A stretch of DNA of 64,000 bases, taken from Haloglomus salinum. Lineage in GTDB: Archaea; Halobacteriota; Halobacteria; Halobacteriales; Haloarculaceae. The position numbers were made by a program, and so were the translations under genes. Location: positions 1,860,001-1,924,000 of the forward strand of contig NZ_CP101153.1 in NCBI RefSeq assembly GCF_024298825.1, given 5' to 3'. Positions 2,763-27,000 of this stretch are shown one piece after another. The notes under the pieces were generated by a model. That model saw only the letters and a program-made list of their open reading frames with translations, did not search any database and was not told the origin of the DNA. How positions within the stretch are numbered: the first letter of the stretch is position 1; the number at the start of each line of letters is the position of its first letter.

Positions 2763-5700
2763 ATGTCGGCGGAGTTCGATGTGGGGGACCAGGTATCGTT
2801 CTATGGGGGACGGGGAAGTGTCGTTGAGGTCATCAGAAATGGCCACAAGACGAAGCTGAGAGTATTGACCGACGAAGGGAAACTGCAGGAGGTTTCGCCT
2901 GATCAACCCCTGTTCCGTCGGGTAGAGGATGCGGAAGCGAATGAGATGGTCGACTTCCTCGGTGGGAAAGCGACTGTCATCGGCAGAGAGGAACGAGCAG
3001 ATGGGGCTGATTTGCTGTACCTTCGGACTGCCGAGGGAGATTTCAAGAAAGTCCCTGCCGATTCGAAAGGACTCCGCCCCGGTCGAACGATTGCTAATCG
3101 GCTCGCCGGTGGGGAATTCAATGACCCGACCCGGTTCAGCCTTCGTGAACGGGCCGCTCGGTTGAGCTTGGCATACGGCTCTGACCGGTTCCTCTCGCTC
3201 TCCGGGAGCCGTATTCGGATTGAGCCATACCAGGTTGACGCGGCTCATGAGGTCCTCACAGCCTACGAGCCGAGATATCTGATTGCCGATGAGGTCGGAC
3301 TCGGAAAGACCATCGAGGCAGGAATCATCATCGAGGAGCTACTTGCCCGGGGGAGAGCTGAACGGATCCTGATTATAACTCCGGCGTCGCTCCGGGACCA
3401 GTGGCAGGCAGAGATGCGCGAGAAGTTCGGTCGCGAGTATGTCGCGTATGACCGGGAGCTGGTGGATTCGCTTCGAAGAACGAATCGCGCCCAGAACGTC
3501 TGGATGGCTGAAGACCAGATTGTGGTCTCGATCGATTTCGCCAAACAGGACGATATGCTGGAGTCCCTCAGACGGCTGGATGCCCCCTGGGACGTGGTCG
3601 TATTCGATGAAGCGCACCACCTGACGGCCCGTGAGGGGAGCGACGGAATCAACCGGGCGGATCGATACCGGGTCGGTGAGGCCGTAGCGGGAAGCACTGA
3701 CGCGCTGCTGTTGCTGACCGGCACTCCCCACAAGGGGAAGCCCGACCAGTTCTACCACCTGCTCCGGCTTCTGGATCCCTATCGATTCAGGGGACCAGAG
3801 GATGTCCGTCCAGAGAAACTGGAGGATCTGATGATCCGGCGGACGAAGAGCGATGACAGTATGATCGACGCGGATGGCACGCCCATGTTCCCTCCTCGAG
3901 AGATACAGACGCTGGGTGTGAACCTCACGCCGGAAGAGCGACGACTCTACGACGACATAACGGAGTATATCTCGGCGGTTTACACGGCCAGTGCTGAATC
4001 AGATCGCCATGCTGCCGGGTTTACGATGGTGATCTACCAGAAACGACTGGTCTCCAGTATCCGGGCCATTCAGCAATCCCTGCAGAATCGGCTGGATGAT
4101 CTGGATACGAAGATATCCGTCGACGCTGCAGTGACAGATAACCTGAATTGCGTCGACGGGACTGTGGAAACGGAGTCCGACGTGCTGGAGCAGCTGATTG
4201 ATGCTGCTGGCGAAATCGGACTCGACTCGAAGGGACGCCGACTGCGGGAATTTCTCGGTGGAATTTTCGATGAGGACCCGGAGGAGAAGGTCCTCGTTTT
4301 CACCGAGTACACCGATACCCTGGAATACCTCAGGGACACGGTCCTGACGGACCTGACAATCGCCGAGATTCATGGCGGAATGGATCAGGAGACACGCCGC
4401 ACGGAGATGAAGCGGTTCGAGGAAGACTGCCAGGTCATGCTTGCGACGGACGCAGCACGCGAGGGGCTGAACCTGCAGTTCGCGCACATCATGGTGAACT
4501 ACGACCTGCCCTGGAACCCCATCCGTATCGACCAGCGGATGGGTCGGCTCCACCGCTATGGGCAGGACGAGAAAGTCCGGATCTACAACCTCTTCATCCG
4601 AGACACACGGGAGAGTGATATTCTCGACCTTCTCGTGACCAAGCTCCAGCAGATCGAGTCGGATACTGGAATGCATTCCGACGTACTCGGCACTGTCCTT
4701 GACGACTACGACGTGGAGGGGGCAATCATGGATGCAGTCACGGGAACGCGGAGCTCGGACGAGGTCAAGGCCGATATCGAAAGCGCCATCGATGAACGAA
4801 AAGAGGCGGTCGAGCGGATAGAGAACGAGTTCCTGATCCGGGACAAGTTCGACCAGGATTCCCTCGAAGAGATACAGGAACTGATCGACCTGAGCGAGAC
4901 ACGTCCGATAGGGGAAGATGACATCGAACAACTCGTCCGCCAGTTCGTCTCGGAGTTCGGCGGTGAGGTACGGAACTCTACTCCCGGTCCCGCCCCTGCA
5001 GAACATCCCCTGTATTCGATCTCGGTCCCGGAGATCCTGTCGATGAATGGGAAGGTACGTGACCAGTATAGCCGCGTCACCTTCTCCCGGGGGACGGCAC
5101 TGGAACGTCCAGAGGCCGAGCTGATTTCGCTAAACCACCCGCTTGTGCAGCAAATCGTCGAGTACTGTCTCGATGGGGACTGGATCGATGGCCAGGTTGC
5201 AGCACTGGTGACGGCAGATTCCGACTCCGCTCCGGGGATTCTCGCAACGTACCGACTCGGATACGTCAGCGGCGATGGGGAGCTACCTACAGAGGATTAC
5301 GTCCGGGTCTATGTCACCGCCGAAGGGGAAGTAATGGAAACACCGCCCCGGATTGCGGGGACACTTCCTCCTGCCGTCGCAACTGCACATCCACAGTCGT
5401 ACGCACTCGCGGAAGAGACGGATTCTCTGCTCGACGTGACTGAATCGAGGGCCCGCGAACGGGTCGAGGAACTCGCAGAGGGTGTTCAAGAGGAACGGCA
5501 GAAGGATGTCGATATCAAGGAACGGCACGCACGCCGCTATTTCGAGCAGAAGATCCGGGAGCAGGAAGACCGGCTCAGGGAATACGAGATCGAAGAGACG
5601 GATACGGACAAGGACATGACGATCGCCATCAGGGGCGCACGGAGCAAACTGGAGGAACTCGAGGAAGAGTGGGAGGCAGAGCAGGAGCGTCTCGAGCGCG

Positions 5701-6293
5701 AGCGGATGGTGATTCCAGACGAACCCGAGTTGATCAACGCTGCCGTCGTCACCAGCAGGATTCCGGCTGTCTCGGAGGCAGTTATGCTCGACGGAACTGG
5801 CGATGATTTCTCTGCTGTCGCGGATGCGATGGATATCGAACAGCCCGACGAGGCGGACTCGCGACTGTCCTTCGTGGAGAGCTACGCAGCTCTCGAATCT
5901 GTCAGTGACCTCGGCTCTGCGGCGCGACTATTCCGGGCAGGCGAAGCACCGGATACATCTGGCTTCACGTATCGGCAGTTCGGTGAAGAAGAAATCGGAC
6001 TCCTGGGAGACACTGATCTATCGAACGAGGATGTCGTGGACGCTGCAGACGGACTCAGGGGGCTGATAGCCGAGTTCAATCAGAGTCCATCTATTCAGCC
6101 CTGTCTTGTTCGCGGAGCCGTGGACGCCTTCTCTCAGGACGGCCAGCTGTTCGTGAACCTCGAAGCCTGGGAGCAACAGCCGCGCCGGTACTGGATTACT
6201 GTACTGGCCCGTGAGATTGCCACAATGCGTTCGCAGGGGGGCCCAGAGCAGCTTTACCAGCGGACGCTCGAAACGATACGAGAGGCAGTCTAG
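2763..6293 (+). CDS. SNF2-family helicase, DrmD-like (copy 1)
   Basis: A 1176-aa Swi2/Snf2 ATPase, predicted double-strand DNA translocase. Two small barrel-like segments come first, each built around a GDxVxFxGGxGxV pattern (about residues 6-25 and 59-80). The RecA-like core follows: DEVGLGKT Walker A (176-183), DEAHH Walker B (282-286) and LLTGTPHKGKP. The second lobe has a VFTEYTDTLEYL block, ATDAAREGLNLQ and QRMGRLHRYGQ. The last third is charged and partly coiled-coil, then a compact C-terminal domain. Large SNF2 proteins of this type are DrmD in class 1 DISARM. It is clearly paralogous to the protein encoded at 10890-13823. Its stop shares a CTAG palindrome with the stop of the convergent methyltransferase gene. 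Confidence 0.85.
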   Translation: MSAEFDVGDQVSFYGGRGSVVEVIRNGHKTKLRVLTDEGKLQEVSPDQPLFRRVEDAEANEMVDFLGGKATVIGREERADGADLLYLRTAEGDFKKVPADSKGLRPGRTIANRLAGGEFNDPTRFSLRERAARLSLAYGSDRFLSLSGSRIRIEPYQVDAAHEVLTAYEPRYLIADEVGLGKTIEAGIIIEELLARGRAERILIITPASLRDQWQAEMREKFGREYVAYDRELVDSLRRTNRAQNVWMAEDQIVVSIDFAKQDDMLESLRRLDAPWDVVVFDEAHHLTAREGSDGINRADRYRVGEAVAGSTDALLLLTGTPHKGKPDQFYHLLRLLDPYRFRGPEDVRPEKLEDLMIRRTKSDDSMIDADGTPMFPPREIQTLGVNLTPEERRLYDDITEYISAVYTASAESDRHAAGFTMVIYQKRLVSSIRAIQQSLQNRLDDLDTKISVDAAVTDNLNCVDGTVETESDVLEQLIDAAGEIGLDSKGRRLREFLGGIFDEDPEEKVLVFTEYTDTLEYLRDTVLTDLTIAEIHGGMDQETRRTEMKRFEEDCQVMLATDAAREGLNLQFAHIMVNYDLPWNPIRIDQRMGRLHRYGQDEKVRIYNLFIRDTRESDILDLLVTKLQQIESDTGMHSDVLGTVLDDYDVEGAIMDAVTGTRSSDEVKADIESAIDERKEAVERIENEFLIRDKFDQDSLEEIQELIDLSETRPIGEDDIEQLVRQFVSEFGGEVRNSTPGPAPAEHPLYSISVPEILSMNGKVRDQYSRVTFSRGTALERPEAELISLNHPLVQQIVEYCLDGDWIDGQVAALVTADSDSAPGILATYRLGYVSGDGELPTEDYVRVYVTAEGEVMETPPRIAGTLPPAVATAHPQSYALAEETDSLLDVTESRARERVEELAEGVQEERQKDVDIKERHARRYFEQKIREQEDRLREYEIEETDTDKDMTIAIRGARSKLEELEEEWEAEQERLERERMVIPDEPELINAAVVTSRIPAVSEAVMLDGTGDDFSAVADAMDIEQPDEADSRLSFVESYAALESVSDLGSAARLFRAGEAPDTSGFTYRQFGEEEIGLLGDTDLSNEDVVDAADGLRGLIAEFNQSPSIQPCLVRGAVDAFSQDGQLFVNLEAWEQQPRRYWITVLAREIATMRSQGGPEQLYQRTLETIREAV

Positions 6294-7585
6294 CTGGCTT
6301 CGAGCGCCTCCCGTATCGCGAGCCCCACGGCTTCGGCGAGAAGCGGTGGAACAGCATTTCCGACCTGTCGGTACGCGGCAGTTCGACTGACGGGGAACAC
6401 GAAACGGTCAGGGAACGACTGGAGCCGCGCGGCCTCTCGAACGGTGAACGACCGAGCCTCGTGGGGATGGATGTGCATGTGGCCATCCTTGTGGATATGC
6501 GCGGGTATCGTCGATGAGGGACGGTCCGCCTGTTGCTTTGTGTAGTTGTCAGCGAACACGTCCTCCCGATAGGGCTGGAGCTCGTCCTGCAGGTCGCCGA
6601 TACGCCACCCGGTCCCGGCTCCAAGGAGCGAGTAGATCGACAAGTCAGTGAGATTGTGGAACCGGGCTTCGTGATTGTGGAGCACCGGTCGCTCGCCGTC
6701 GTCCGTCGCCGCAGCCGGTGCGTCCTCACGGGCCCAGAGCTGATACTCTGTCACGGGTGGGAGTTCGTAGCGATCGGTCGCGGCGGGCGGGTGCGGATCG
6801 TCGGCCCGGGTCCCGGCAGGGGAAAGTGGCGGCAGGTCAGAGATCGCCTCGGCGACGGTGACCCAGGGCTCACGCGACCGGGGCTTCGAACTCGCGTTCT
6901 CCTCTGGGTCATCAACCCACCTGTCCAGTGTCTCCTGTGGCTGTTCGTGCTCCGGATTCGAAGTGAGGCGGGCCTCTCGTTCTTCCTCCGTAGCTGGCTC
7001 ACGATGGGAGCGCCATTCCTCGATTTTCGGTGGCCGTCTGCCGTTCTTCGTCCCGATTATCAGCAGACGCTTTCGGTGCTGTGGAACGCCGTAATCTGCG
7101 GCATCTACTACCCGCGGTCTGACCCTGTAACCCAGGCTACTGAACTGTCCACAGATATGCTCGAGAACAGACTCGCCAGCTTCGTTGGTAGCCGAGGACA
7201 TCCCCTCGACGTTCTCCATGAGAAATGCGGATGGCTCGTATTTATCAACGGCGTCCCGGAGCCGCTCCCAGAGCTGTGTTCGACTGTCGGTGGTGGCATC
7301 ACGGCCCTCCAGCGAGTTCAGTTTCGAGCGTCCGACCACAGAAAACGGAGGGCAGGGTGGGCCGCCCGCCACCAGGTCGATTCCGGTCTCGAACTCGGGG
7401 AGCGTATAACCCGAGAGGTCCGCCGTCGTGCAGTCGACATCAGGGTGATTCTCCCGATACGTTTCCACCGCTGCTTCGTCGTTATCTACTGCCCACTCGA
7501 CCTCGAACCCGGCCCATTCGAGTCCGGTAGAGAGACCCCCAGCTCCGCAGAACAGATCGATCGCAGAGAGCGAATCAGCCGCCAT
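6290..7585 (-). CDS. C5-cytosine DNA methyltransferase (DrmMII-like)
   Basis: A 431-aa Dcm-type enzyme transferring methyl from SAM to cytosine C5. It shows motif I DLFCGAGG (residues 10-17), catalytic Cys78 in GGPPCPPFS, motif VI MENVEG (Glu124) and QHRKRLLIIG of motif VIII. Motif IX/X is QSFPDRF with RQVGNAVPP near the end. The variable region between motifs VIII and IX is long and holds the target recognition domain. The ATG at 7585 was preferred to the one at 7612 because nothing conserved precedes it. It lies 45 bases downstream of a second C5 methyltransferase gene, so both are probably co-transcribed. It overlaps the SNF2 gene tail to tail by four bases. Confidence 0.9.
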   Translation of the reverse strand: MAADSLSAIDLFCGAGGLSTGLEWAGFEVEWAVDNDEAAVETYRENHPDVDCTTADLSGYTLPEFETGIDLVAGGPPCPPFSVVGRSKLNSLEGRDATTDSRTQLWERLRDAVDKYEPSAFLMENVEGMSSATNEAGESVLEHICGQFSSLGYRVRPRVVDAADYGVPQHRKRLLIIGTKNGRRPPKIEEWRSHREPATEEEREARLTSNPEHEQPQETLDRWVDDPEENASSKPRSREPWVTVAEAISDLPPLSPAGTRADDPHPPAATDRYELPPVTEYQLWAREDAPAAATDDGERPVLHNHEARFHNLTDLSIYSLLGAGTGWRIGDLQDELQPYREDVFADNYTKQQADRPSSTIPAHIHKDGHMHIHPHEARSFTVREAARLQSFPDRFVFPVSRTAAYRQVGNAVPPLLAEAVGLAIREALEAS

Positions 7586-7630
7586 ACCGGTACTGCTGGC
7601 GCCAGCAGTCAAGAAGTTTGAGAACTGCGG

Positions 7631-9877
7631 TCAGTCGTCAGTGCTCGCGACGGCTGCCTCCGTGGCTTCCGTTTCGAGCCCCGGAGCATCAGTGAGGTAC
7701 TCACCGAGGATCGAGGCGATCCGTTCCCCGAGCAGAGGGGGGACTGCGTTGCCGATCTGGCGGAACTGACTGGTGAACGGGCCAAGGAAGACGTACGAAT
7801 CAGGGAACGACTGGAGACGGGCAGCCTCACGGGGAGTTATTCCGCGACTCCGGCTGCTATCCTGTTTCGACTCATCAGGTCGGGCGTACTCGTAGTAGTC
7901 GGGAAGGATGAAGCTGTTCCCATCCTTGGCCAGATGCGCAACGATGGTCGGTGAGGGCTGATCCCAGTGGAGCATCCGGTACTTGTCCTTGAATGCCGGG
8001 TTCTCCTCTGTCCCGACGTTGTACTCGATGAGATGGCCGTAATCCGTTCTGTACTTCACGTCCCAGCCGGTATCTCCTGGTTCCATCACCTCGCTGAACA
8101 GCTTCCGGTCTTTCTCCATCGGGTGTTCGCGAGCCCGGTGGTTGTACGTCAGCCGCGTCCCGCCAGCCAGCTCGTTGTCTCGAACGTAATCACTGGCCCG
8201 GCCAGGAGCCCGTCCAGCCACGACACCGCCCCCCTCTCCTCTCCGCAGTCGAGGGAGATTAGAAAGGGCCTGCTGGATCGTTGTCTCTGGCGTTTCCGCC
8301 GGGGACATGTCATCGAAGAACCCCTCCACATGTCCTTCGGGGTCGGGGACGGCATCCTCGCGCGTGCCGAACAGCACTACACGGTCGCGGTATTGCGGTA
8401 TTCCGAACGTCGAACAGTCGAGGAGCTGGTGGTCGGTAGTATACCCCATCTCGGACAGTGCTGCCTCGACATCGTCGATGACACGCCGCTCGCTGTCTCC
8501 CAGCGAACTCAGAATCCCCTCGACGTTCTCCATGATGATGTACCGTGGTTCGAGCGTTTCGAGTAGAGAGACGTAGTGCTGGTAGAGCCGGGTCCGTGGG
8601 TCCTCCAGTACGCTGTACGAATCGTCGTCTGCCAGTCGCGACCGATAGCCGGCGACGGAGAGGGCCTGGCATGGGGGGCCACCAACGACGACATCGACCT
8701 CCGGAGCGAGGTCCTCAATCTGTCCCGGGTCTTCTGCAATGTTGCCGATGTCTTCGCACCGGATCTGTCGGTGGGGGATCTCGGGGTGGTTGAGCCGATA
8801 CGTATCCGTCGCGTCCTGTTCCTGGTCGATCGCGAGGGCCACGTCGAATTCGGGCGCACCGACTCCTCGCGTGAACCCATGTGAGAGGCCTCCAGCTCCA
8901 CAGAACAGATCGACGACGGTCAGGGTCTCCTCATTCCCACTCGCTGCCTGTTCGTGGATACGGTGAGAGAGCGTGAACTGTCGCAGTTCGCAGTCGGCAG
9001 TCGAGTGGTCGCCGGAGCAGTAGTGTGCGTGGGCGGCAAGCGCTCGATGGAGGGGCGGAATCTGTCGATCAGTGAGCTCCTCCTCGAGCTCGTGATGCCG
9101 ACCGCTCCCGGATACATCAGCCGGGTCGAGTAGCCCGAGCTCGGCGAGGAGTCCATCGACGCCATCGGCCGCGGGCCAGACGGGCTTGTCGAACGCAGTC
9201 AGAAGTAGCCACCATGCCTCCGGATCATCTACCCCGGGCAGCCCAGCGAGCATCTCGTGCAGATACTCGTAGGAGACCGAGGGGAGGTCAGTGAGCGTCG
9301 TGCCCTCTGTGTAGCGGTGCTCGTCGATAGCCGCGAGCGCTTCCTGTAGCCGGCTCACGGCCGTATCATCCAGCACACGCCCCCCCTGCGATTCGCGGGC
9401 CGCGCGCTGGAGCCGATCACGCCCGGCAGACGCGATATCGCTCCAGGAACCAACCCGCTCCCGAAGGGCACCAATCAGGTTCCGTTCGTCCCGTGCGAAG
9501 TAGTGTTCGACGACCGAGTCGCTGTTCGAGATCACGACAGCTGCGACGGCGTCGAGCGGGTCGTCGCTGCCGTGGAGTGGGTCACCACAGGCGCAGGCCG
9601 CCCCATCCCGGTCTTCCGATGGTGTCCAGATGCGCTCGTAACAGCACGGGTAGGAACCGTCGTCCTTGCTCCGAGAGCGGGCGAGCATGACCGGTGTCGA
9701 GTCGGGACAGGCGCACGGAACACTCCACTGTCGCTGTTGCTGTTCTGCGGCAAGCGTGTCTGTCAGGAATCTAATGTGACGTAGCAGGAACTCGCGGTGT
9801 TCCGTTCGCTCGCTGTCTGGGCAGTCGGCTACCGCCGGTAGCCGGCCACCTGGTTCTTGACAGCCGTGGTCACTCAT
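7631..9877 (-). CDS. C5-cytosine methyltransferase fused to an EndoIII-like N-terminal domain
   Basis: A 748-aa fusion protein. Residues about 55-100 are Cys-rich (CAC, PCC, CAC clusters). Residues about 165-300 read like the second half of an EndoIII/HhH-GPD glycosylase: LPGV hairpin (213-216), a LLLTAF helix, an Asp in the PAADGVD position, and a late Cys/His segment. The catalytic Lys position is replaced and only part of the Fe-S cysteine pattern remains, so the domain may bind rather than cut DNA. From residue 321 a full Dcm methyltransferase follows: DLFCGAGG, catalytic Cys403 in GGPPCQALS, MENVEG, and RQIGNAVPP at the end. The start at 9877 is chosen over GTG at 9925. The methyltransferase call is firm; the EndoIII-like call is by pattern. 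Confidence 0.85.
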   Translation of the reverse strand: MSDHGCQEPGGRLPAVADCPDSERTEHREFLLRHIRFLTDTLAAEQQQRQWSVPCACPDSTPVMLARSRSKDDGSYPCCYERIWTPSEDRDGAACACGDPLHGSDDPLDAVAAVVISNSDSVVEHYFARDERNLIGALRERVGSWSDIASAGRDRLQRAARESQGGRVLDDTAVSRLQEALAAIDEHRYTEGTTLTDLPSVSYEYLHEMLAGLPGVDDPEAWWLLLTAFDKPVWPAADGVDGLLAELGLLDPADVSGSGRHHELEEELTDRQIPPLHRALAAHAHYCSGDHSTADCELRQFTLSHRIHEQAASGNEETLTVVDLFCGAGGLSHGFTRGVGAPEFDVALAIDQEQDATDTYRLNHPEIPHRQIRCEDIGNIAEDPGQIEDLAPEVDVVVGGPPCQALSVAGYRSRLADDDSYSVLEDPRTRLYQHYVSLLETLEPRYIIMENVEGILSSLGDSERRVIDDVEAALSEMGYTTDHQLLDCSTFGIPQYRDRVVLFGTREDAVPDPEGHVEGFFDDMSPAETPETTIQQALSNLPRLRRGEGGGVVAGRAPGRASDYVRDNELAGGTRLTYNHRAREHPMEKDRKLFSEVMEPGDTGWDVKYRTDYGHLIEYNVGTEENPAFKDKYRMLHWDQPSPTIVAHLAKDGNSFILPDYYEYARPDESKQDSSRSRGITPREAARLQSFPDSYVFLGPFTSQFRQIGNAVPPLLGERIASILGEYLTDAPGLETEATEAAVASTDD

Positions 9878-10070
9878 GACATCCTCCGTACAGGATGCGA
9901 CCCTCCCTCGCGGCCGGCACAGCACCTTCAGGCGACGGAGTCATGACGACCATCTACACCCTGTTGATAACTGGCTAGAATAAAACATTTATGCCACATC
10001 TGCTGCCCCGCAAGGGGGATAGTGATATTGCCGTGCGGTACCTGCTAGATCCCAGAGGTGTCAGTTCGGG

Positions 10071-10862
10071 ATGCCAGATGATACCGGGAGCGTCGATCTT
10101 CCCTTCGGCCGGACCACGGCGACTGCGGCTGAGCTCGCCCAGCAGGCGGACCAGAAAACCGCCTGCTCACTGCTCGCGGAGAACGGCACCCCCGACCCCA
10201 CGAGACGGCTTTCGCTGTTCTTCCAGCAGGTACCTGAACTGCTCCAGTGGCTGGAGGCAAACGGGCGCCACTTCCCCTGGCGGAACACAACCGATCCGTG
10301 GAGGGTCTACCTCTCCGAAATCCTGCTCCAGCGGACCCGTGCAGAGGCGGTCAATGAGCTGTATGGATCGTTCTTCGAGCAGTTTCCCCACCCGGAAGCG
10401 CTCCATCAGGCTTCTGACGAGGAGATTCATAGCCTTATCCAGACCCTGGGGTTCGGGAATCAGCGGACGAGGACGCTGAACGAGGTTGCCGAACTCGTCG
10501 TCACTGAACACGGCGGAGAGGTTCCCCAGTCACTCGAGGAGCTCCAGCGACCATGGCGGGTGGGTCCATACTCCGCCCGGGCGACGATGCTCTTCGCGTA
10601 CGGGGAACCGCTCGCCCTGGTCGACACTAACTTCGCCCGGGTCACCGAGCGTGTGTTCGGCTACGAGATGCCCACGCAGCCACACAAGAGCGACGAGGTC
10701 TACCAGCTACTGGATGCTCTCGTCCCCGCCGAGCCCGCCCTGTGTCGGAGCGTCAATCTGGCACTGCTGGATCTGGCTGATGCGATCTGTACGCCATCGG
10801 AACCCCGGTGTGATGTCTGTCCGCTCGCCGAAGGCTGCCTGTACGCTTCTCCCGGTGAGTAG
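10071..10862 (+). CDS. EndoIII/MutY-superfamily DNA glycosylase, Mig-like
   Basis: A 263-aa HhH-GPD glycosylase with a 4Fe-4S cluster. It has PWRNTTDPWRVYLSEILLQRT near residue 70 (conserved Glu83), hairpin VGPYSARA with Tyr167 at the position of the EndoIII catalytic Lys, and general-base Asp185 in LVDTNFARV. The cysteine set is C240-x6-C247-x2-C250-x5-C256. Tyr at that position is a feature of the thymine glycosylase Mig.Mth and of some MutY proteins. Mig.Mth is encoded beside a 5mC restriction-modification system and repairs T:G mismatches left by 5mC deamination. Here the gene sits next to two 5mC methyltransferase genes, which favours the Mig role; A/G-specific MutY is the alternative. 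It is convergent with the SNF2 gene 27 bases away. Confidence 0.8.
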   Translation: MPDDTGSVDLPFGRTTATAAELAQQADQKTACSLLAENGTPDPTRRLSLFFQQVPELLQWLEANGRHFPWRNTTDPWRVYLSEILLQRTRAEAVNELYGSFFEQFPHPEALHQASDEEIHSLIQTLGFGNQRTRTLNEVAELVVTEHGGEVPQSLEELQRPWRVGPYSARATMLFAYGEPLALVDTNFARVTERVFGYEMPTQPHKSDEVYQLLDALVPAEPALCRSVNLALLDLADAICTPSEPRCDVCPLAEGCLYASPGE

Positions 10863-10889: not shown

Positions 10890-13823
10890 TTACATCCCGA
10901 TAACGACCGCGGCGTTGACCAGTTCGGGTTCCTCCGGAACGACGACCTCCTCCTCTTCCAGACGCGAGAGCTCCGCTTCCCGCTCGCTACGGAGATCAGC
11001 AAGCTTCCGTTCGGTCTGGTTAACTAGGACCTGCACGTCCTCTTCGGGGTCGCTCGCACGCTGCCTGTATCGCTCGAGTCGTTCCTCCTGCTCCTCGATC
11101 CGGCTCTCGAAGTAGCGCCGTGCATGCTTGCGCTTGATCTCGATCTCGCGAGAGCGCTCCGACTGGGCCTCCTCTGCGAGCTCGTTGACGCGCTCCCAGG
11201 CCTCTGTCTCTGCAACCTCGATGAGGTCGTCTGCTACCTCTGAAACGGTTGCAACCTCCTCGAATCCGGGTGCATCACCGGGCGGAATCCCTCCAACGAT
11301 TTCCGGATTCTCGGTTATTGTTCCATCTGGCTGCACGTAGATCTGGGCGAGCCGTTCGGTGACCGTATCGCCACGCCCCGACTGGTATCCAAGCCGGTAG
11401 TTGCAGAGCAGTCCCGGAGTCGGTGTCTCCTCCGACCCGACCCTCACAGCCGTCTGGCCGCCGACTGCGTCAGCTCTGAGACAGAACTCGACGATGTTCT
11501 GGACCAGTGGGTGGTCGAGGGCGAGGAACGTCAGCTCGTCGTCCTCCTGTGCGAGGTCCCGAGAGAAGGTCGCCCGATCGTACCTGCTCTCGACCTCGCC
11601 GCCGTCGATGACATCCGGTACGATCAGCTGGAACACGTCGCCGCCCTCGCGTGCTGGTCCCGGATGTGTTCCCCTGATCTCGCCATCGAAGAGGTCGAAG
11701 AAGCTCCGGACGAGTGTCTCGATATCTGTCTCGCTAACCTGCTCGGTGCGGGATTCCTCGATTACATCGAGGATTTCGCGGTCCTCCGCACTGAGGTCGA
11801 ACCGGTCGCGGATCAGGAAGTCCTCCTCTATTCGCCTGATTGCATCCTCGTGTTCCTCGACGGTCTCGTCGACCATCTCGGCGAACTGCTCGACGGACTG
11901 GTCCTTCGCGATGGCCGTCATGATCTGGTTCTCGAGGTCGAACTCGTCGAGTACCATCCCCAGCACGTCAGAGCTCATCCCCAGCGTCGACTCGATCTCC
12001 TCGACCTTCTCCATCAGCACCTCGAGAATGTCGCTCTCGCGGGTGTCGCTGACGAACAGGTTCCGTATCTCGACGGTGTGTTCCTGTCCATAGCGGTGGA
12101 GTCGGCCGATCCGCTGGTCGATACGGATGGGGTTCCAGGGCAGGTCGTAGTTCACCATGATGTGCGCGAACTGCAGGTTCAGCCCCTCGCGTGCTGCGTC
12201 CGTCGCAAGCATGATGTTCGCCTCGTCACGGAACTTCTCGAGTTCGCGCCGGCGCTGGTCCTGGCTCAGATCGCCGTATATCTGCGCGACATCGTGATTG
12301 CTGAAGACCCGCTCCCGCAGGTACTCGAGGGTGTCTGTGTACTCGGTGAAGATGAGCACCTTCTCGTCGGGGTCCTCCCCCAGCACGCCGTCGACGAACT
12401 CGCGGAGCCGCTCCGCCTTCGAGTCGGTCTGGATGCTCTTCGCCTGGTTGTATAGGTCCCGGACGATGTCCAGCTCCTGTTCGATGGCTCCGCCGCCCTG
12501 CCCCAGCGTCACTTCGCCGAGCTCCTCCTCGACGCGCTCGCGCTGTGCGTCCGTGAGCATCTCGGGGTCCGTACGGTACTGGTCCAAGAGACTCTTCACG
12601 AGACTCGAGAGGTCGTCCGGGTCCTTCCCGCCGCTCTTGAGCGTCTCGAGTCGCTTCTTCAGCGACTTCCGGATGGCGTAGATGCTGGAGACCAGTCGTT
12701 TCTGGTAGATCGCCATCGCGAACCCGACGGCGTTGTTGTCCTCCCGCTCGGCGAGGTTATAGTGCTCGCTGATGTAGTCCGTGACGTTGTCGTAGAGGGC
12801 GCGCTCCTCGTCAGTGAAACTCACGGGGAGCGTCTCGATGTTCTTCTCGGGGAACATGCGCGAGCCGTCGGGCTCGTACATGTCCTCCTTCAACCGTCGG
12901 ATCATCAGGTCATCGAGCGCGTCGGGGGTGATGTCGTGCTCGTCCCGGAACCGGTAGGGGGCGAGCAGGTCCATCATGAAGTAGAACTGGTCTGCCTTCC
13001 CCTTGTGTGGCGTCCCCGTCAGGAACAGCAGCCCCTCGGAGTTTCGTGCAACTGCCTTGCCGACCCGGTACCGTTCGGTCGTCTCCTTCGTGTTGTTTCC
13101 TTTCCGTCGGGCGGTCAGGTGGTGGGACTCGTCGAACACCGCGATGTCCCACTCCTGCTCGAGGTTCTGGAGGGCTGCAAGCAGGTCGTCTTGCTTGGCG
13201 AAGTCGATGGAGGTGATGATGCGGTCGTCGTGGGTCCAGACGTTCTCGTTCGGGTGGGCCTTCCGTTTCGCCTCGACGTAGCCACGGTCGTAGATCTGGT
13301 AGTCGCGGTCGAACTTGTCGCGCATCTCCTCCTGCCACTGGACCGTCAGTGGTGCCGGCGTGACGATGAGCACACGGTCGGCACGCCCGCGAGCGATGAG
13401 TTCCTCGATGACGATGGCGGCCTCGATGGTCTTCCCGAGCCCTACCTCGTCGCCGATGAGATAGCGATGGTCGAGCGAGTTGAGAACCTCGTAGGCGGCC
13501 TGGACCTGGTAGGGCTCGATGTCGATACGGCTGCCCGTGAGCGCGACGAAGCGATCCTGCCGGTGGGCGAGCCCGAGCTCGGCGGCCTTCAGCCGGAGGT
13601 CGAACCGTTCGGGGCTATCGAACTCGCCCTTGCCGAGGAGGTCCACTCCGGTATCGAGCTTCTCGATGTTCATCGAGCTCGGGCGCTTCTCGAGTCCGTC
13701 CTCGGTATGGATGTGGAGCAGACATGGGCCCGTCTCCCGGTGGTCTATTTTGGAAATCTCACCCTGTCCCCCGGCGAACGAGACCATATCGCTGACCTCG
13801 AACCCGCAATCGCAGTCGGTCAC
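10890..13823 (-). CDS. SNF2-family helicase, DrmD-like (copy 2)
   Basis: A 977-aa Swi2/Snf2 ATPase paralogous along most of its length to the copy at 2763-6293 but about 200 residues shorter. It has one N-terminal barrel (VSFAGGQGEISKI) instead of two, Walker A DEVGLGKT at 125-132, a DESHH Walker B, LTGTPHKGKADQF, and a second lobe with ATDAAREGLNLQ and QRIGRLHRYGQ. The C-terminal part shares the acidic DLFDGEIRGTHPGPA region and the long charged coiled coil. It ends soon after the PEEPELVNAAVV block, whereas copy 1 continues into another domain. Two different DrmD-like motors in one island is unusual and suggests either two systems or divided labour. Confidence 0.85.
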   Translation of the reverse strand: MTDCDCGFEVSDMVSFAGGQGEISKIDHRETGPCLLHIHTEDGLEKRPSSMNIEKLDTGVDLLGKGEFDSPERFDLRLKAAELGLAHRQDRFVALTGSRIDIEPYQVQAAYEVLNSLDHRYLIGDEVGLGKTIEAAIVIEELIARGRADRVLIVTPAPLTVQWQEEMRDKFDRDYQIYDRGYVEAKRKAHPNENVWTHDDRIITSIDFAKQDDLLAALQNLEQEWDIAVFDESHHLTARRKGNNTKETTERYRVGKAVARNSEGLLFLTGTPHKGKADQFYFMMDLLAPYRFRDEHDITPDALDDLMIRRLKEDMYEPDGSRMFPEKNIETLPVSFTDEERALYDNVTDYISEHYNLAEREDNNAVGFAMAIYQKRLVSSIYAIRKSLKKRLETLKSGGKDPDDLSSLVKSLLDQYRTDPEMLTDAQRERVEEELGEVTLGQGGGAIEQELDIVRDLYNQAKSIQTDSKAERLREFVDGVLGEDPDEKVLIFTEYTDTLEYLRERVFSNHDVAQIYGDLSQDQRRRELEKFRDEANIMLATDAAREGLNLQFAHIMVNYDLPWNPIRIDQRIGRLHRYGQEHTVEIRNLFVSDTRESDILEVLMEKVEEIESTLGMSSDVLGMVLDEFDLENQIMTAIAKDQSVEQFAEMVDETVEEHEDAIRRIEEDFLIRDRFDLSAEDREILDVIEESRTEQVSETDIETLVRSFFDLFDGEIRGTHPGPAREGGDVFQLIVPDVIDGGEVESRYDRATFSRDLAQEDDELTFLALDHPLVQNIVEFCLRADAVGGQTAVRVGSEETPTPGLLCNYRLGYQSGRGDTVTERLAQIYVQPDGTITENPEIVGGIPPGDAPGFEEVATVSEVADDLIEVAETEAWERVNELAEEAQSERSREIEIKRKHARRYFESRIEEQEERLERYRQRASDPEEDVQVLVNQTERKLADLRSEREAELSRLEEEEVVVPEEPELVNAAVVIGM

Positions 13824-16945: not shown

Positions 16946-19900
16946 TCAGTCATCTCGAACTGCTGACTCGACAATTTCAATTTCCTCGTCGGTCAATTTG
17001 TAGAGGTCGTAAACAATCTCATTGATTAGCTGGTCGATTTTCTCGATTTTCTCATCCAGATCGTCAGCGCGCTCACGCACCTTGATATACTGCTCCAGTC
17101 CAGTTTGAACCTCACCGATGTCAGGGAGTGTCAGGTCTTTCAGCCGGTCCAGCGGTGAGTTCGTCTTAGTCGCGCCCTGCCGGAAGCCCGCGAATCCGTC
17201 GTCTTCCTCAATGGCGACAGGCACGAACTCTCGCAATAGCGTCTCCTCAGCCTCCGATAGACCGACAAAGGCCATCGCCTCGTAGGTCTCGAACTCCGAT
17301 TCGGCGAGACGGTTCCAGCGGTCTGTCTCGCGTGGGTCTTCCTCGTCGATCTTGTAGCTCAGGCTCACCGACAGCACCAGTCGTCCCCCCTCGTCTGCGA
17401 AGGATACCCCCTCTATACGCAATCCTTCATACTCATCCGTAGTCTTAGTCAGCGGCGTGTCTGCGACGCCCGCTACCGGCATCTGTAAGTCTTCGAGCGT
17501 TTCGCCTGCCTTCGCCTGCGGCAGTTCGTCACTTGGGATTCCGAGATAGTCGAGGAGCGCGAGATTAAGACCGGATTTGTCTTCGGTCTCTTCGGACCGA
17601 ATTCGGGCAAGTATCGCCAACAAATCATGCAATACAACGTCGTGTACTTCTCTTTGCTTAATTTTGCTTATAACATCCCCGACGGAACGTGCTTCTCTTA
17701 TCTCTTCTTCCAACTCGGCTACTAATTCGGACCTTTCGTTCGGCTCACCGTCGAAGTTAATTGCCCGAATCGGGAGGTCACGAAGCTCGTGGATTCGAAC
17801 CTGTGCGAAGGTCCGATCCTCCTCGCCTGACCGGGAGCGGTACACATACCGAAGGACCGCACTGTTAATTAGTGCAAGAACATACCAGAGGTCATACCGC
17901 TCATCGTTGAGTAGAGTCGTATGTACTGACTTGGCGGTGTATAGCTCGTTGGTATCGATTGCTCCGATGAGTGTCTCTGCCGTTTGTCTCGTGAGTAATT
18001 TCTCGGATACCTCGGTGTACTCGGGATACACCTGAATGACAATATCGCCCTCGACGAACGAGTCATAGTCGTGACGCAGCCACTTGTTCTCCGGTTCGAT
18101 ACGGTATCGCTCGATTTCACCACCACCAACGTAGCGGTGATCCTCCTCGTTTTCCTGTTCACCCTCATACATGATGAGATCAGAGATCTTCGTCCCCTCA
18201 CCTCGATTCTGCCAGCCTTGTCCACTTACTTTATAATCGATACCGGCATCGTGACAGGTACATATCGACGGCTCAAGCTCGACTATCTCATCTAACTCAG
18301 TAATTTTCCCCTCGACCCGATCGACAACACGCCATGGCTGTGAAGCTCGTGCCTCTATGGGAATAGAGTATCCTTCATCAGAAATCTCTGCTTCGTCTCC
18401 CTCGACGAGCGTAGCGTTATAATTTTCAGATGGACGCATGTTAGATGCGGTGAGTATCATCGTGAATATCTCCTCGTTGAATACATGATGCTCACCAAAA
18501 TCCACAATCTCCTCTATCGAATATCGCTGGGAGTTTACTCGACGAAATGCCTCGTACTGCTTTCCTTTCAGCGGAGTATTTGGTATGATATAGCTCCATG
18601 TGCCAGCCGCTCTCAGGATTCGGTCAGGAAGCGCAACGAATGCAGTGAAGATATCGGCACGTTCGCTCTCGAATCCCATCCCTTGAGCTCGACAGTATTT
18701 TTTCGCCCGCGTATCGAGAATATCCCCGTACGGTGGGTTCCCGAGTACCACATCAAATCCACCATGATCCTGTCGATCTCCATCCTGCTCGTAGAACGCT
18801 ATCGGGAACTCCAGTTCCCAGTGGAAGAATTGCTGGTCTTTGGCCATCGCCTCCGCCGACTGATACCAATCATATCTTTCGATTTTCTCCCAAGAGTCAT
18901 CCCGCAGGGCCTCTGCCATGCGTTCGTAGGCATCAGCGGGCACGTCCAGCCCGAACCGCTCGGCGGTATGGACGTTCGCCATGGCAATGAGGTGCTGATA
19001 AAGTGGGTCGTCGCGTACCTCGTCGTAGACGGTCTCCATCTCCTTGATGTCGTCCAGTGTCTCGTTGTCGATAGCGAGCAGGTCCTCGAACTGGTTGGTG
19101 ACGTGCTCTAAGGCCTGCCGCCGCGTGCGGTCGAACGACTCTTGCAAGGTTAGCTGACCTTCTTCGGTCCCGTTGTCAGGGTCGCCGTTGTCAAGCACCG
19201 TCTCAATGTCGCTGCCAACCAGCGAGTTCCCCGTCTTGAGATGATGGTCGAGGAAGGCAAGCGGTTGCTCGGCGGCGAGCGTCCGAAGCCATAGCGACAC
19301 CTTCGCCAGTTCGACCGCCAGCGGATTCAGGTCCACGCCGTAGATGCAGCGCTGCGCGACCTGCCGGCGGGCCCAGTTGATGTCGTGTTCCTCGTCGACG
19401 GTTTCGATACCCTGCTGGGCGGCCTGCCGCTCCTGAGCGTCGATAATTTCACGGGCGAGGTAGTCGATAGCGCTCGTCAGGAAGTGGCCGCTGCCCATGG
19501 CGGGGTCCAGGATTTTGAGGTCGAACACCTCCTCAGCGAACTCCTCAGCGAATCCTCCTTCGTCGAACGCACTTTGGCCAACGAGACTCCCCCGGATGTC
19601 GTCGACAATCGGTCCGAGCGTTTCCTCGACGATGTACTCGACGACGTACTCCGGAGTGTAGTACGACCCTGTCGCCTTCCGTTCGCCAGAGTCAGTGGTC
19701 AAGTATACATCGCCCTCGTTCACCACGACTTCGGAGTCACTGTCGGCACTCACGTACTCGCCGGCCTCCACGGCCTTCGGCTCGTGTGCGACGTTCAGCT
19801 GGTATTCGAGCAACCCCTCGTAGATGCTACCCAGATGACGGATGTCCAGCGAGGAGTAATCCACGAAGACCTTGCCGTCACCCTCGTCCGCTTCGCGGCG

Positions 19901-21106
19901 GGTCAGCAGGTCGACCACCTCGGCAAGGTGGGAGTCCGGGGCCTCGTGGCTGGCGAGGAAGAGCGCCTCCTCGCTGTCGTCGGGGTCCGGGTTCGTCCGG
20001 AATAGCCCACCGTTGTACGCTGGAATGTAGAGCTGATCCTCCGGAATCCCCCGGGACTGGCTCCCCTCGTTGATGAGGTCGAACAGTTCTCCCAGGCGGT
20101 TCCAGAGGTCCGTCTTCCAGGCGAGGTAGTGATCCTGCGAGTCCTCGAGGTTATCGGCGACGGTTCGCTTCAGGTCGTTCAGACTGTAACTGTCGCTGTA
20201 GATGTCGTTGTCCGTCGGGAGGAGGTCACGGCCCTCGCTCTCGGCGTACAGGACGAAGATGAGTCGATACAGGTAGATGAGCGAACTGTCGTGGATGCGT
20301 TCGAGGTCCTCCTCCCCGAGGTCGTCGTTGTACTCGAGGAACCCCTCGGCCAGCACGCGGATGGCCTCGTAGATGTTGTCCTGCAGGTCCTCCCCGAGTG
20401 CCTCGGCGAACGTACTGCTCTCGTCGTATACATCGTCGAGGAAGCAGTCGCCGTCGGACTCCTCGACGAAGGCCTGCCGCCGGAAGAAGAGGTAGAAGTA
20501 CCGGAACGCCTCGGTATCGCCCTCCTCCAGTAGCGTCGGCAGATCGATCTCGTAGTACGAGTCTAGGCGGTGACTCGTGGGGCCGTAGTAGAGCCGCCAC
20601 TTCTGGCCGTTGGTCAGCACCGCCCAGGTCGCGGGGGTCTCCTGGAGGTAGACGTGGATCTGATAGCTGGGATTCTCGAAGTCGCGCTCGCGCTTGCCCC
20701 GGGTGTCCAGCTTCCGGCCCCAGCGTTTGGCGTCGGCGACGGCGATGGCCTCCTCGTAGAAGTCACCGCCCTCGTCTCGCCGCTCGTGGGCAGCCTCTTT
20801 GCTCTCCTGGCTCCGGAAGAACGCGTAGTCCGGTCGCCGCTGCCCGCGCTCGACCGTCTCCTCGATCTCGAAGGTGATCCCCAGCCGTTCGAACACGGGA
20901 CGGATGAGTTCGCGCTCCAGTTGCGCCTCGTTGTAGCCCTCCACGCGGTCCGCCTCCGCCTGGTAGAGGTCGCGGATGTCCTCCATGGCGGACTCGACCT
21001 CGTCGTCCGGAACCTCGTTCCAGGGCTCGGTCTTCGGGAGGTGTTCGTTCAGGTAGTAGTTCGAGAACAGGTCGCGGTTCGTGCGGTAGGTGAGTGCCGA
21101 TTGCAT
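16946..21106 (-). CDS. drmMI: Adenine-specific DNA methyltransferase with nuclease motif (DrmMI / type IIG-like)
   Basis: A 1386-aa N6-adenine methyltransferase related to Eco57I, PglX and DISARM DrmMI. Around residues 85-130 a PD-(D/E)XK-like motif (RRPDYAFF, then AVADAKRWG) suggests a restriction-type nuclease domain. SAM motif I is LDPAMGSGHFL (about residue 533) and catalytic motif IV is LGNPPYGDI (about 789). A target recognition region follows, then a C-terminal coiled coil ending in YDLYKLTDEEIEIVESAV, as in PglX-like proteins. ATG 21106 was chosen because the 39 residues before it in the open frame are low-complexity and unconserved. It is divergent from the GHKL-drmA-drmB-drmC operon. 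Base composition shifts AT-rich in the recognition region (about 17.5-18.7 kb), suggesting TRD exchange. Confidence 0.85.
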   Translation of the reverse strand: MQSALTYRTNRDLFSNYYLNEHLPKTEPWNEVPDDEVESAMEDIRDLYQAEADRVEGYNEAQLERELIRPVFERLGITFEIEETVERGQRRPDYAFFRSQESKEAAHERRDEGGDFYEEAIAVADAKRWGRKLDTRGKRERDFENPSYQIHVYLQETPATWAVLTNGQKWRLYYGPTSHRLDSYYEIDLPTLLEEGDTEAFRYFYLFFRRQAFVEESDGDCFLDDVYDESSTFAEALGEDLQDNIYEAIRVLAEGFLEYNDDLGEEDLERIHDSSLIYLYRLIFVLYAESEGRDLLPTDNDIYSDSYSLNDLKRTVADNLEDSQDHYLAWKTDLWNRLGELFDLINEGSQSRGIPEDQLYIPAYNGGLFRTNPDPDDSEEALFLASHEAPDSHLAEVVDLLTRREADEGDGKVFVDYSSLDIRHLGSIYEGLLEYQLNVAHEPKAVEAGEYVSADSDSEVVVNEGDVYLTTDSGERKATGSYYTPEYVVEYIVEETLGPIVDDIRGSLVGQSAFDEGGFAEEFAEEVFDLKILDPAMGSGHFLTSAIDYLAREIIDAQERQAAQQGIETVDEEHDINWARRQVAQRCIYGVDLNPLAVELAKVSLWLRTLAAEQPLAFLDHHLKTGNSLVGSDIETVLDNGDPDNGTEEGQLTLQESFDRTRRQALEHVTNQFEDLLAIDNETLDDIKEMETVYDEVRDDPLYQHLIAMANVHTAERFGLDVPADAYERMAEALRDDSWEKIERYDWYQSAEAMAKDQQFFHWELEFPIAFYEQDGDRQDHGGFDVVLGNPPYGDILDTRAKKYCRAQGMGFESERADIFTAFVALPDRILRAAGTWSYIIPNTPLKGKQYEAFRRVNSQRYSIEEIVDFGEHHVFNEEIFTMILTASNMRPSENYNATLVEGDEAEISDEGYSIPIEARASQPWRVVDRVEGKITELDEIVELEPSICTCHDAGIDYKVSGQGWQNRGEGTKISDLIMYEGEQENEEDHRYVGGGEIERYRIEPENKWLRHDYDSFVEGDIVIQVYPEYTEVSEKLLTRQTAETLIGAIDTNELYTAKSVHTTLLNDERYDLWYVLALINSAVLRYVYRSRSGEEDRTFAQVRIHELRDLPIRAINFDGEPNERSELVAELEEEIREARSVGDVISKIKQREVHDVVLHDLLAILARIRSEETEDKSGLNLALLDYLGIPSDELPQAKAGETLEDLQMPVAGVADTPLTKTTDEYEGLRIEGVSFADEGGRLVLSVSLSYKIDEEDPRETDRWNRLAESEFETYEAMAFVGLSEAEETLLREFVPVAIEEDDGFAGFRQGATKTNSPLDRLKDLTLPDIGEVQTGLEQYIKVRERADDLDEKIEKIDQLINEIVYDLYKLTDEEIEIVESAVRDD

Positions 21107-21270
21107 GAGCGGAGGTCCCCCACGCCCGGGCGCCGTCCGGCGGCCCTGGTGGATACCGACCCCCAGAGACGACTCGCACATAACAGTTGCCAACGGGTCA
21201 GGCACACGCGTGCGAGCACGCACGTGGGTGCGTACGCGCTACGCGCGCCCACGTGTGCCCAGTTCTATAC

Positions 21271-24080: not shown

Positions 24081-27000
24081 ATGTCACAGCAAGAAACCGA
24101 TACGCAGCAGATCGAGGAGGGACCGCCGTCAGACGAGGAGCGAATCGCTCGCCACCTGCGGAAGCGGGTGCTCGAGCAGGCTCGCGGCGACATCGACGAG
24201 CGCGTCCCCCGAGACTTCCCGAGCGAGCGGTTCTTCGCGGGCGCGCTCGCAGCCCGGAGCAGCGACCAGCTGGATGAGCCGGACGACGACCTGCAGTCCA
24301 AGATGGAGCCGAGCGCTCTGGGCTCCACGGTCAGGGTACGTAACGGCTCCCCTGATGACGCCCTCGTCGTCAACGTCGACGCGAGCGTCTGGGTCCGCGT
24401 GTATCCGACATACGAGGAGATGCGGAACCGGGAGTCGTTCGTGGCCCTCGGCGACCGCGACGAGGACGATGACGGCGACGAGCTGCTCCCCGTGTTCCGT
24501 CGGCTAGAACTCGATGTCGACCCGATCCGCATCCCGTTCGACGAGCTCGCCGACCGCCCGCGGCATACCCCCGAGGTCGTCAGGGAGCGCGCGAACACCG
24601 CCCTGCGTGACGCCTTCGAGGACGCCCGCGACCAGGCGCTCGACCAGTTCGATGTGTACGAGGTCCCCGGTGGAGAACCGGGTGACGACGAGGTACCGGC
24701 ACAGGCGCTCGCCAGCGAGGCGGACTTCGAGGGGTATCTCGCCGAGCGGGATGGCGTCCCCGCGATTCCTGACTGGGACGCCGACCTCGCCATCTCGGTG
24801 ATGCCCGACCGCGAGGACGGCGGTGAGGACGTGCTCATCGTCGATATCGAGCTGACGAACCGGGCCATCCAGTCGGAGGCGGACGGGATCCACACGATCC
24901 GCGACCCGACACTCTTCGAAGTCGAGTTCGAGCTCGAGGCCGACGGCAACCTCGAGTTCGTCCCGTTCACGTTCGACCCGCTGCCACAGGACTTCCGGTA
25001 CAACCGAGACCTCTGGGGGCACGGTCGGAACTGCACGGTCGTCGCTCCTGACGAACACGAGACGTTGCGGGACGGGCGTACTCCAGGTCGGCGGGCACCC
25101 GAGGCCGACCCGTCCGCCGACCGGCTCGAGACCCGGTACGTCCCACAGTACCGGCAGCTGGTGTACGAGTCCGCGGACAGGGGTGTCGATCCCCGGTTCG
25201 ACGACCTCTCCGACCTCGACGGCGGTGGACTGGAGGTTCTGGATGATGTCCACCGCTCGATGCAGCGGTACCTCGAGGAGGACTACCCGGCGGCGCTCGA
25301 CCAGTACCGGGAACGGGATGACTGGGACGACGACCCCGAGACCGGTGACCTGGCGGACTTCATCGAGGACCGCAAGGCGTTCGAGCGCGAGATCGCGCGG
25401 TTCGAGCGCGGTATCCGTTGCCTGCGACAGCATCCGGAAACCGTCGGGCGCGCGTTCGAGTGCATGAACGAGACGATGGACCGGATGCACGACTTCGACT
25501 CCTGGCGTCTGTTCCAGCTCGTGTTCATCGTCACGCAGGTCCCCGACGTGACCGCTCGCGAGCACGACGGCTGGGACGAGGTCGAGTGGCGCAACAATGA
25601 TACCGACGACAGGGCAGAGGAGGCCGACTCCGCGCTCGAGGTTGTCGATGTCCTCTGGTTCCCGACGGGCGGTGGCAAGACCGAGGCGTTCCTCGGTGTC
25701 GCGGTCTGGAACATGTTTTTCGACCGCATCCGGGGGAAGGACTTCGGGGTGACTGCCTGGACGCGGTTCCCGCTGCGGCTGCTGTCGCTCCAGCAGCTCC
25801 AGCGGATGTCCGAGACCATCATGTACGCTGACCTCGTCCGCCGGGAACAGCCAGACATCGGCGAGCATCCGTCTCGCTCGTTCTCTGTCGGATACCTCGT
25901 CGGCAAGAAGAACACCCCCAATCAGCTCACAGGGTACAACAACGACAACTACTCCCGGTACAGGAACGACCGCTCGCTCCGCGAGGATGCCAAGGTCGTC
26001 CCCTCCTGTCCGGCCTGCGACGCCCCGGTCGAGATGCGGGTGACGGACGACGACCATCGGCTCGCCCACGTGTGTACGGGCTCGTCGTTCGACTGCCCGT
26101 GGCAGGCGCGGGATGTCGACCCACAGGAACCCTACGATGAGGACGAGCTACCGGTCCACGTCGTGGACAACGAACTCTACCGGTACGCTCCGACCATCCT
26201 CGCCGGCACCATCGACAAGATCACCGCGATCGGCTACCAGCGAAAGGTGGCCCATCTGCTGACCGGCGAGATGGACTGCAAGTGCCCCATCCACGGGTTC
26301 GCCAGCCTCGGCGAGTGCACGGAGAAGTACGGCTGCGAGATCGACCGGGACGAGTTCGAGGAACTCGCGACCCCTGTCGAACCATACGATCCCGCACCCT
26401 CGCTGATGGTGCCCGACGAGCTCCACCTGCTCGAGGAGAGCGTGGGGAGCTTCGACGGCCACTACGAGACCGGTGTCGACGCGCTCCAGGACCTCGTGGA
26501 CGCTGGCACCACCAAGATCATCGCTCCGACGGCGACGATCACGGCGTACGAGGACCAGGTTCACCACCTGTTCATGCGCTCTGCCGAGCGGTTCCCGGCT
26601 CCGGGGCCGTACCTGCGGGAGAACTTCTACGCCCGGGAGCGAGCGGAGACGCAGCGCTACTACATCGGGCTGGTGCCCCACGGGAAGACCCACATCAACT
26701 CGATCATCGACCTGCTCTACTACTTCCACGAGGAGGTCCAGACGCTGCTCCGTGAGGCCCTCGAGAACCCCGAGGCGCTCCTGACCGGCGCCGTACTTGA
26801 GGGGACGGATACCGACCAGCCACTCGAGACCGACCGCGTCGACGAGGTCATCTCGATGCTGACGCTGTACAGCACGAGCCTGACATATCTCCTCTCGAAG
26901 AAGGACGGCGACCGGCTCGACCAGTCCATCGTCTCCCAGCTCGAGGCCTACCTCAAGCGCGATGATCGGCCATCGCTAACGGCGAAGCGGCTCACCGGAG

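Follow-up and report, generated by a model that had tools for sequence, protein, structure and literature searches.

What does an endonuclease III (EndoIII)-like domain do at the front of a C5 DNA methyltransferase? The question is raised by a gene in a 64,000-nucleotide stretch of Haloglomus salinum DNA (the window, i.e. the whole stretch that was analysed), which a preliminary description had placed at 7631-9877 and read as a C5 methyltransferase (MTase), termed Dcm, tethered to a degenerate domain of the HhH-GPD superfamily. Both the open reading frame and the MTase domain were borne out. An alternative GTG start lies upstream at 9925 and gives an open reading frame of 764 residues (7631-9925, minus strand). 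As the Met of the ATG at 9877 is an invariant column in the alignment of full-length orthologs (A2; 20 of 21 rows, L015 omitted), the coordinates 7631-9877 are right. Residue numbers of the Dcm protein are counted from the GTG throughout; ATG numbering is obtained by subtracting 16. Pfam PF00145 matches the protein with 195 bits and identifies it as a C5 DNA methyltransferase. The residues of FxGxG, PPCQ, ENV, QxRxR and GNAVPP, which we take to be the motifs of this enzyme class, are invariant or nearly so among 20 orthologs, and the region between conserved motifs at residues ~525-690 has space for an ordinary target-recognition region. A Pfam search with the first 330 residues returned no match, the C5 methyltransferase domain being the only one seen. 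The coordinates of the features are collected in Table 1.

Table 1. Features of the fused methyltransferase gene and its surroundings in the window.
Feature	Position	Strand	Remarks
SNF2/RapA-type helicase, DrmD/BrxHII-like	2763..6293	(+)	PADLOC
Second C5 methyltransferase, without N-terminal extension	6290..7612	(-)	Pfam
C5 DNA methyltransferase with N-terminal HhH-GPD-like domain	7631..9877	(-)	748 aa from ATG
C5-methyltransferase domain	7712..8920	(-)	Pfam PF00145, residues 336-738, invariant Cys419 in PPCQ, ENV
N-terminal HhH-GPD / endonuclease III-like domain	8939..9820	(-)	Residues 36-329 (approx.); AlphaFold2, Foldseek, VIA, profiles
Catalytic Asp position	9167..9169	(-)	Ala253 in window copy, Asp one residue further on
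Invariant Trp238-Trp239	9209..9214	(-)	Trp239 aligns with OGG1 Cys253 (C253W in PDB 6w13)
Catalytic Lys position	9221..9223	(-)	Pro235 in window copy
Cys-rich insert, residues 65-120, between first two EndoIII helices	9566..9733	(-)	Ortholog alignment
Mig-type HhH-GPD glycosylase, divergent neighbour	10071..10862	(+)	Mig Tyr and Asp and four Fe-S Cys kept
Second SNF2/RapA-type helicase, DrmD/BrxHII-like	10890..13823	(-)	PADLOC
DrmMI-like adenine methyltransferase	16946..21223	(-)	PADLOC
DrmA-like helicase	24081..27902	(+)	
DrmB-like protein	27909..29870	(+)	
DrmC-like PLD nuclease	29917..30852	(+)	

The N-terminal half (N-domain) was addressed by structure prediction and profile comparison. 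An AlphaFold2 model obtained from an alignment of the 21 orthologs (A1, glycosylases excluded; the L009 row extends into the MTase) reached a pLDDT of 83 and a pTM of 0.82. With this model, Foldseek placed endonuclease III-1 and III-3 of D. radiodurans on top (E 2.6e-6, probability 1.00). VIA gave Z scores of 15.3 for 4uob (rmsd 5.4 over 226 residues) and 15.2 for 4unf, along with 14.2 for E. coli EndoIII (2abk), 14.2 for ROS1 with 5mC DNA (7yhp), i.e. about 1 Z below the top match, and 13.0 for Mig; the matches listed, the best 50, are all HhH-GPD glycosylases. The sequence profile of the N-domain likewise found EndoIII of D. radiodurans as its best match in the PDB (E 1.6e-5). Comparison with free-standing haloarchaeal EndoIII-like proteins by hhalign (profile of 12 of the 16 rows; sa_L029, L104, L105 and L106 omitted) resulted in a probability of 97.75% and a score of 88, as opposed to a maximum of 20.7 over 50 column shuffles, 15.7 for the reversed profile against the same group and 11-16 for the reversed profile against the remaining groups. 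Among curated models, NCBIfam NF053634 (“monofunctional DNA glycosylase”) matches the window N-domain best, with 26.7 bits (E 3.6e-6) and thus short of its curated cut-off of 400 bits. At the gathering score of PF00730 (HhH-GPD) there is no match in the window N-domain, and one of the 21 orthologs matches (E 0.0038). The preliminary description had recognised an EndoIII-like part in this half, proposed AlphaFold with Foldseek as a check, and named an unrelated fold as the outcome that would speak against it. The predicted fold is that of HhH-GPD proteins, all-helical and of the EndoIII type, and on the strength of this model the N-domain belongs to the superfamily by fold.

The glycosylase activity that goes with this fold appears to be gone, judging from the residues of the N-domain. 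The catalytic Lys that follows the hairpin in endonuclease III is found in 0 of 21 orthologs (Pro235 in the window copy), and the Fe-S region at the C-terminal end of the domain holds two Cys where EndoIII has four, both as described beforehand. The iron-sulphur loop of EndoIII has the spacing C-x6-C-x2-C-x5-C, which is not found in the N-domain. Conversely, the “conserved Asp” formerly reported did not hold for the window copy: the aligned position in the GPD loop is Ala253, so that the catalytic Asp of HhH-GPD proteins is missing there, with an Asp one residue later. Asp occupies this position in 17 of the 21 orthologs, replaced elsewhere by Ala (window), Gly, Asn or Ser in four scattered copies (L007, L013, L021, L026).

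Trp238, Trp239, Lys247, Pro248, Trp250 and Pro251 are invariant in all 21 orthologs, KPxWP being kept in the Asp-less copies too. No Trp was seen at the positions of Trp238 and Trp239 in 32 comparison glycosylases, i.e. those out of 34 in which the hairpin was located by motif. Trp239 aligns with the Trp that replaces Cys253 of OGG1 in PDB 6w13, albeit in a weak OGG1 match (E 0.09 / 0.011). This engineered C253W exchange is described, in the portions of the two reports available here, as keeping the base out of the pocket (PMC7477556) and as leaving OGG1 without glycosylase activity (PMC12499884). The base pocket of the N-domain thus appears to be plugged by the invariant Trp239, which makes the earlier designation as a “base-flipping” domain doubtful. 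Still, DNA scanning by the tethered domain is plausible, and the N-domain may inspect DNA while admitting no flipped base to its pocket. Within the Cys-rich insert, C73, C94 and C113 are present in 21/21 orthologs and C111 in 20/21; this Cys4 insert may bind a metal. Neither the insert nor the Trp-Trp pair nor the DISARM setting (see below) was part of the preliminary description, whose observation is partly confirmed and whose interpretation is partly supported; its central statement, an MTase tethered to a degenerate EndoIII-like domain, was right.

The divergent neighbour had been called an intact glycosylase of the same superfamily, in agreement with our results. Its best match is the thymine-DNA glycosylase Mig.MthI (PDB 1kea, E 2.2e-39), with MutY next, and it keeps the Mig residues Phe27, Glu42, Arg47, Ala50, Tyr126, Asp144 and Leu187, the roles of which were taken from the available part of PMC2714593. 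In the 13 of 22 Mig-type proteins that were used for comparison, the window copy included, Tyr126, Asp144 and the four Fe-S Cys are present in 13/13; Phe27 is exchanged for Tyr in 11, Ala50 for Gly or Ser in 10, and Leu187 for Phe in 3. The neighbour is thus a candidate for an intact Mig-type glycosylase, with predicted T:G activity. At E 1e-45 or better, a Mig-type gene is present in 12 of the 21 fusion genomes, as compared to 10 of the 370 genomes that lack the fusion. In nine of the latter ten, a C5 MTase gene lies divergently beside the Mig-type gene (L129-L137), and homologues of the second C5 MTase of the window are divergent neighbours of the Mig-type gene in other genomes. This pairing is consistent with the reported function of Mig, namely to repair deaminated 5mC (PMC2714593, as far as available), and suggests that haloarchaeal C5 methyltransferases tend to be accompanied by Mig-type repair; at the fusion locus, repair could already come from this separate, intact enzyme. 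As separate observations, the Mig-type gene looks interrupted in G034 (L044:12625-15234), contains a stop or frame break in G092 (L140:6237-7003) and is present as a fragment only in G261 (L050:10372-10524), the fused MTase being intact in each case. PADLOC labels the window glycosylase as a type II nicking endonuclease.

A survey of Dcm proteins with this extension, as formerly proposed, covered a sample of 391 genomes of the halobacterial class and located the N-domain as an MTase fusion in 21 of them. In 33 further genomes of the class there are weaker N-domain matches only, which lie in other reading frames; those among them that were extracted proved to be short EndoIII-like proteins in which Lys, Asp and the Fe-S Cys are present. 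A search with the MTase half alone recovered the same 21 genomes (open frames of at least 745 residues), after which the E-value drops from 1.4e-133 to 4.5e-44 and the next three matches reside in open reading frames of 396-426 residues. Thus, this MTase ortholog group always carries the N-domain in the sample (21/21). The genera concerned include Natrinema, Halorhabdus, Halorubrum, Halomarina, Halomicrobium, Halapricum, Halarchaeum and Salinarchaeum. Relatives outside the haloarchaea were considered and rejected: a scan of genome contigs with two peptide patterns returned 10 relatives, all of them haloarchaeal; a phylum sample of 392 genomes contained 3 fusions, all already among those of the class, the other 7 being short EndoIII-like proteins; and the plasmid records that carry the N-domain are 3 haloarchaeal ones. 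On the plasmid of halophilic archaeon DL31 (L143:15031-17187), the annotated form of the fused MTase begins at an internal start, and part of the N-domain is covered by an open reading frame annotated on the opposite strand. Among the papers returned by searches of the open-licence literature, we recognised none that describes this fusion, and the word “glycosylase” does not occur in the available part of PMC12458937.

The N-domain changes faster than the MTase, with mean pairwise identities of 48% and 63%, respectively. For seven close pairs selected from 210, the last of which (L007-L008) is near saturation, omega amounts to 0.08-0.21 in the N-domain and 0.05-0.13 in the MTase; the former range indicates that the N-domain is maintained by purifying selection. 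That the fused domain might be a copy of the neighbouring glycosylase was rejected. In a midpoint-rooted tree of HhH-GPD proteins (53 of 55 rows; sa_L029 and sa_L106 omitted), the fused domains and the Mig-type proteins fall into separate groups (support 100/100 and 99/99, respectively), and hhalign assigns 97.75% to the EndoIII-like group as compared to 1% for the Mig-type group. The fusion was thus not copied from the adjacent gene, as far as the long branches of the tree permit. A viral origin was rejected as well, as the N-domain has no relatives in viral contigs, whether searched by single protein or profile, and no viral structure matches it at E 0.001 or better.

The locus around the fusion is of the DISARM type. 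According to the available part of PMC9142583, DISARM is defined by DrmA, DrmB and DrmC together with a DrmM methyltransferase in one locus. This gene content is found in the window, where DrmA, DrmB, DrmC and DrmMI are accompanied by two SNF2-type helicases and a second C5 MTase; a role of the locus against viruses is predicted. DrmA homologues lie inside the stretch examined in 17 of the 20 other fusion loci and near one more (G138). Of the 21 fusion genomes, 20 contain a DrmB match, mostly as part of a DISARM-type locus, as compared to 27 of the 370 genomes that lack the fusion (Fisher 1e-19), many of the 27 matches being weak, and a close DrmB (at least 57% identity) occurs in 16 genomes, all 16 of which have the fusion. 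Some further genes may be mentioned. The two SNF2/RapA-type helicases, each matching both BrxHII and DrmD models, flank the MTase/glycosylase group, and locus L037 likewise holds two SNF2b-like genes. Directly upstream of the DrmA-like gene, a 916-residue protein is encoded (21327-24077, plus strand) for which there is no match in Pfam, PADLOC (at E 1e-8) or the PDB; homologues with 44-62% identity occur in 6 of 20 related loci, and it is possibly a DISARM component of a new sort. A TATA-binding-protein gene (16356-16889, minus strand; PF00352, E 2.8e-40) lies within the defence island, with homologues in the related loci L037 and L056, and a Cas4-like PD-(D/E)XK nuclease (567-1703, minus strand) recurs close to the fused MTase of loci L039 and L040.

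We favour, with a probability of about one half, the reading that the N-domain is a non-catalytic DNA-reading module by which a repurposed EndoIII-like domain positions or gates methylation. The Dcm protein would represent the DrmMII-like C5 methyltransferase of a DISARM-type locus in haloarchaea. Glycosylase chemistry would have been lost from its N-terminal half, with the Lys gone, the Asp dispensable, the Fe-S set incomplete and an invariant Trp plugging the pocket. The N-domain would hold the duplex or slide along it, as the HhH-GPD fold does during interrogation, and thereby position or gate the attached MTase on host DNA; the methylated host DNA would then be recognised as self by DISARM. 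Chemistry that seems lost and a pocket that is apparently plugged, yet strong selection, make it probable that the domain aids DNA reading rather than repair. For DISARM of Serratia, the available part of PMC9142583 reports that the ATPase of DrmAB is lowered by methylation and that the complex is less active on 5mC DNA, so the sites written by this MTase should matter for the distinction between self and foreign. The persistence of Asp in 17/21 orthologs, more than an unused residue requires, argues against the DNA-reading module. A more specific version sees the pocket-plugged glycosylase as a DNA-patrol head, locked in interrogation with no base flipped into the pocket, that licenses cytosine methylation only on acceptable DNA; the DISARM self mark would then depend on repair-type inspection. 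We regard this version as rather speculative.

The rival explanations decrease in likelihood from a docking role over a residual glycosylase to a site sensor. A purely structural role accounts for the same data as the DNA-reading module. The N-domain would serve as a scaffold for docking or folding, e.g. with DrmA/DrmB, the SNF2 helicases or the Mig-type enzyme, and make no contact with DNA. The HhH hairpin is indeed altered, its second Gly (position 233) being Gly in 3 of the 21 orthologs, a loss that could weaken backbone binding by the N-domain. Moreover, the fusion and DrmB co-occur almost constantly, and the linker to the MTase appears to be only a few residues long in a full-length model (20-row alignment), the mean pLDDT of which is 67.8, poor past residue 545, so that the domain packing is not readable. 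Among the prospective partners, however, DrmB has no match at all in one fusion genome (G091), and the Mig-type gene is not an obligate one, as 9 of the 21 fusion genomes lack it at the threshold applied. A docking role is therefore the foremost alternative to the DNA-reading module, if an unlikely one.

We consider it improbable that the N-domain is still a monofunctional glycosylase in most orthologs, with Asp but no Lys as in MutY or Mig, that excises either a modified base of viral DNA or a product of methylation such as T opposite G; the copy in the window would then be a decayed member. The prevalence of Asp at the catalytic position would be explained, NF053634 is the best curated match, if far below its cut-off, and Mig-type glycosylases do accompany C5 MTases. 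Still, Asp was lost in four copies in which WW and KPxWP stayed invariant, the invariant Trp sits at the position of OGG1 Cys253, and a Mig-type gene already adjoins the fusion in many loci. The accessory domains of DNMT1 provide a precedent for steering a methyltransferase, and the N-domain might analogously be an added target-recognition domain or a sensor of 5mC or hemimethylated DNA, as its conserved Cys4 insert and the rank of ROS1 on 5mC DNA could suggest, but this rank reflects the fold only and the MTase has space for an ordinary target-recognition region, so that we hold a sensor to be the least probable explanation.

If the DNA-reading module is correct, the N-domain represents a conserved pseudo-glycosylase, a base-excision fold that was retained under selection after the loss of its chemistry and is joined to the enzyme that sets the self mark for an immune locus. 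Should the Trp plug be real, nature would have introduced the very exchange by which crystallographers trapped the search state of OGG1, and the N-domain would be a tool for studying DNA search by such enzymes.

Among known systems, the best matches in sequence (E 1.6e-5) and fold (Z 15.3 and 15.2) are Endonuclease III-1 and III-3 of D. radiodurans (4unf, 8a5c, 4uob). In the available part of PMC9268735, these are free-standing enzymes with Lys, Asp and an Fe-S cluster, and DrEndoIII3 is described as a natural member that is catalytically silent on the usual substrates but binds tightly to DNA, and its entrance may impede the passage of a base. The N-domain differs in that the Lys is missing, the Fe-S Cys are incomplete, the Cys4 insert is added and a C5 MTase is attached. 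DrmMII is likewise a C5 MTase in a DISARM-type locus, and the MTase half hits DrmMII models of PADLOC (E 2.7e-73). The models listed have 333-491 positions and none of them spans the N-domain; with the N-domain alone, two orthologs matched no PADLOC model, and the match of a third query was confined to the part that extended into the MTase. A DrmMII annotation can thus conceal a second domain. The likeness to Mig.MthI (1kea) belongs to the neighbour and not to the fused domain. ROS1 and DEMETER rely on an active Lys/Asp pair. As Lys is found in 0/21 orthologs, the similarity to these 5mC glycosylases is one of fold only (Z 14.2). Base-excision restriction was rejected as a precedent, as the review PMC10273834 covers, in its available part, the PabI HALFPIPE fold and not HhH-GPD. 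OGG1 C253W (6w13) has Trp at the same aligned pocket position, by which the enzyme is trapped while the base still resides in the helix (PMC7477556, available part); this Trp is engineered into an otherwise intact enzyme, whereas that of the N-domain is natural, invariant and accompanied by the loss of Lys. Finally, in MBD4 a single protein connects an HhH glycosylase with 5mC biology, according to the available part of PMC9266487. There, a reader domain is combined with an active glycosylase; here, a writer enzyme is combined with a degenerate one.
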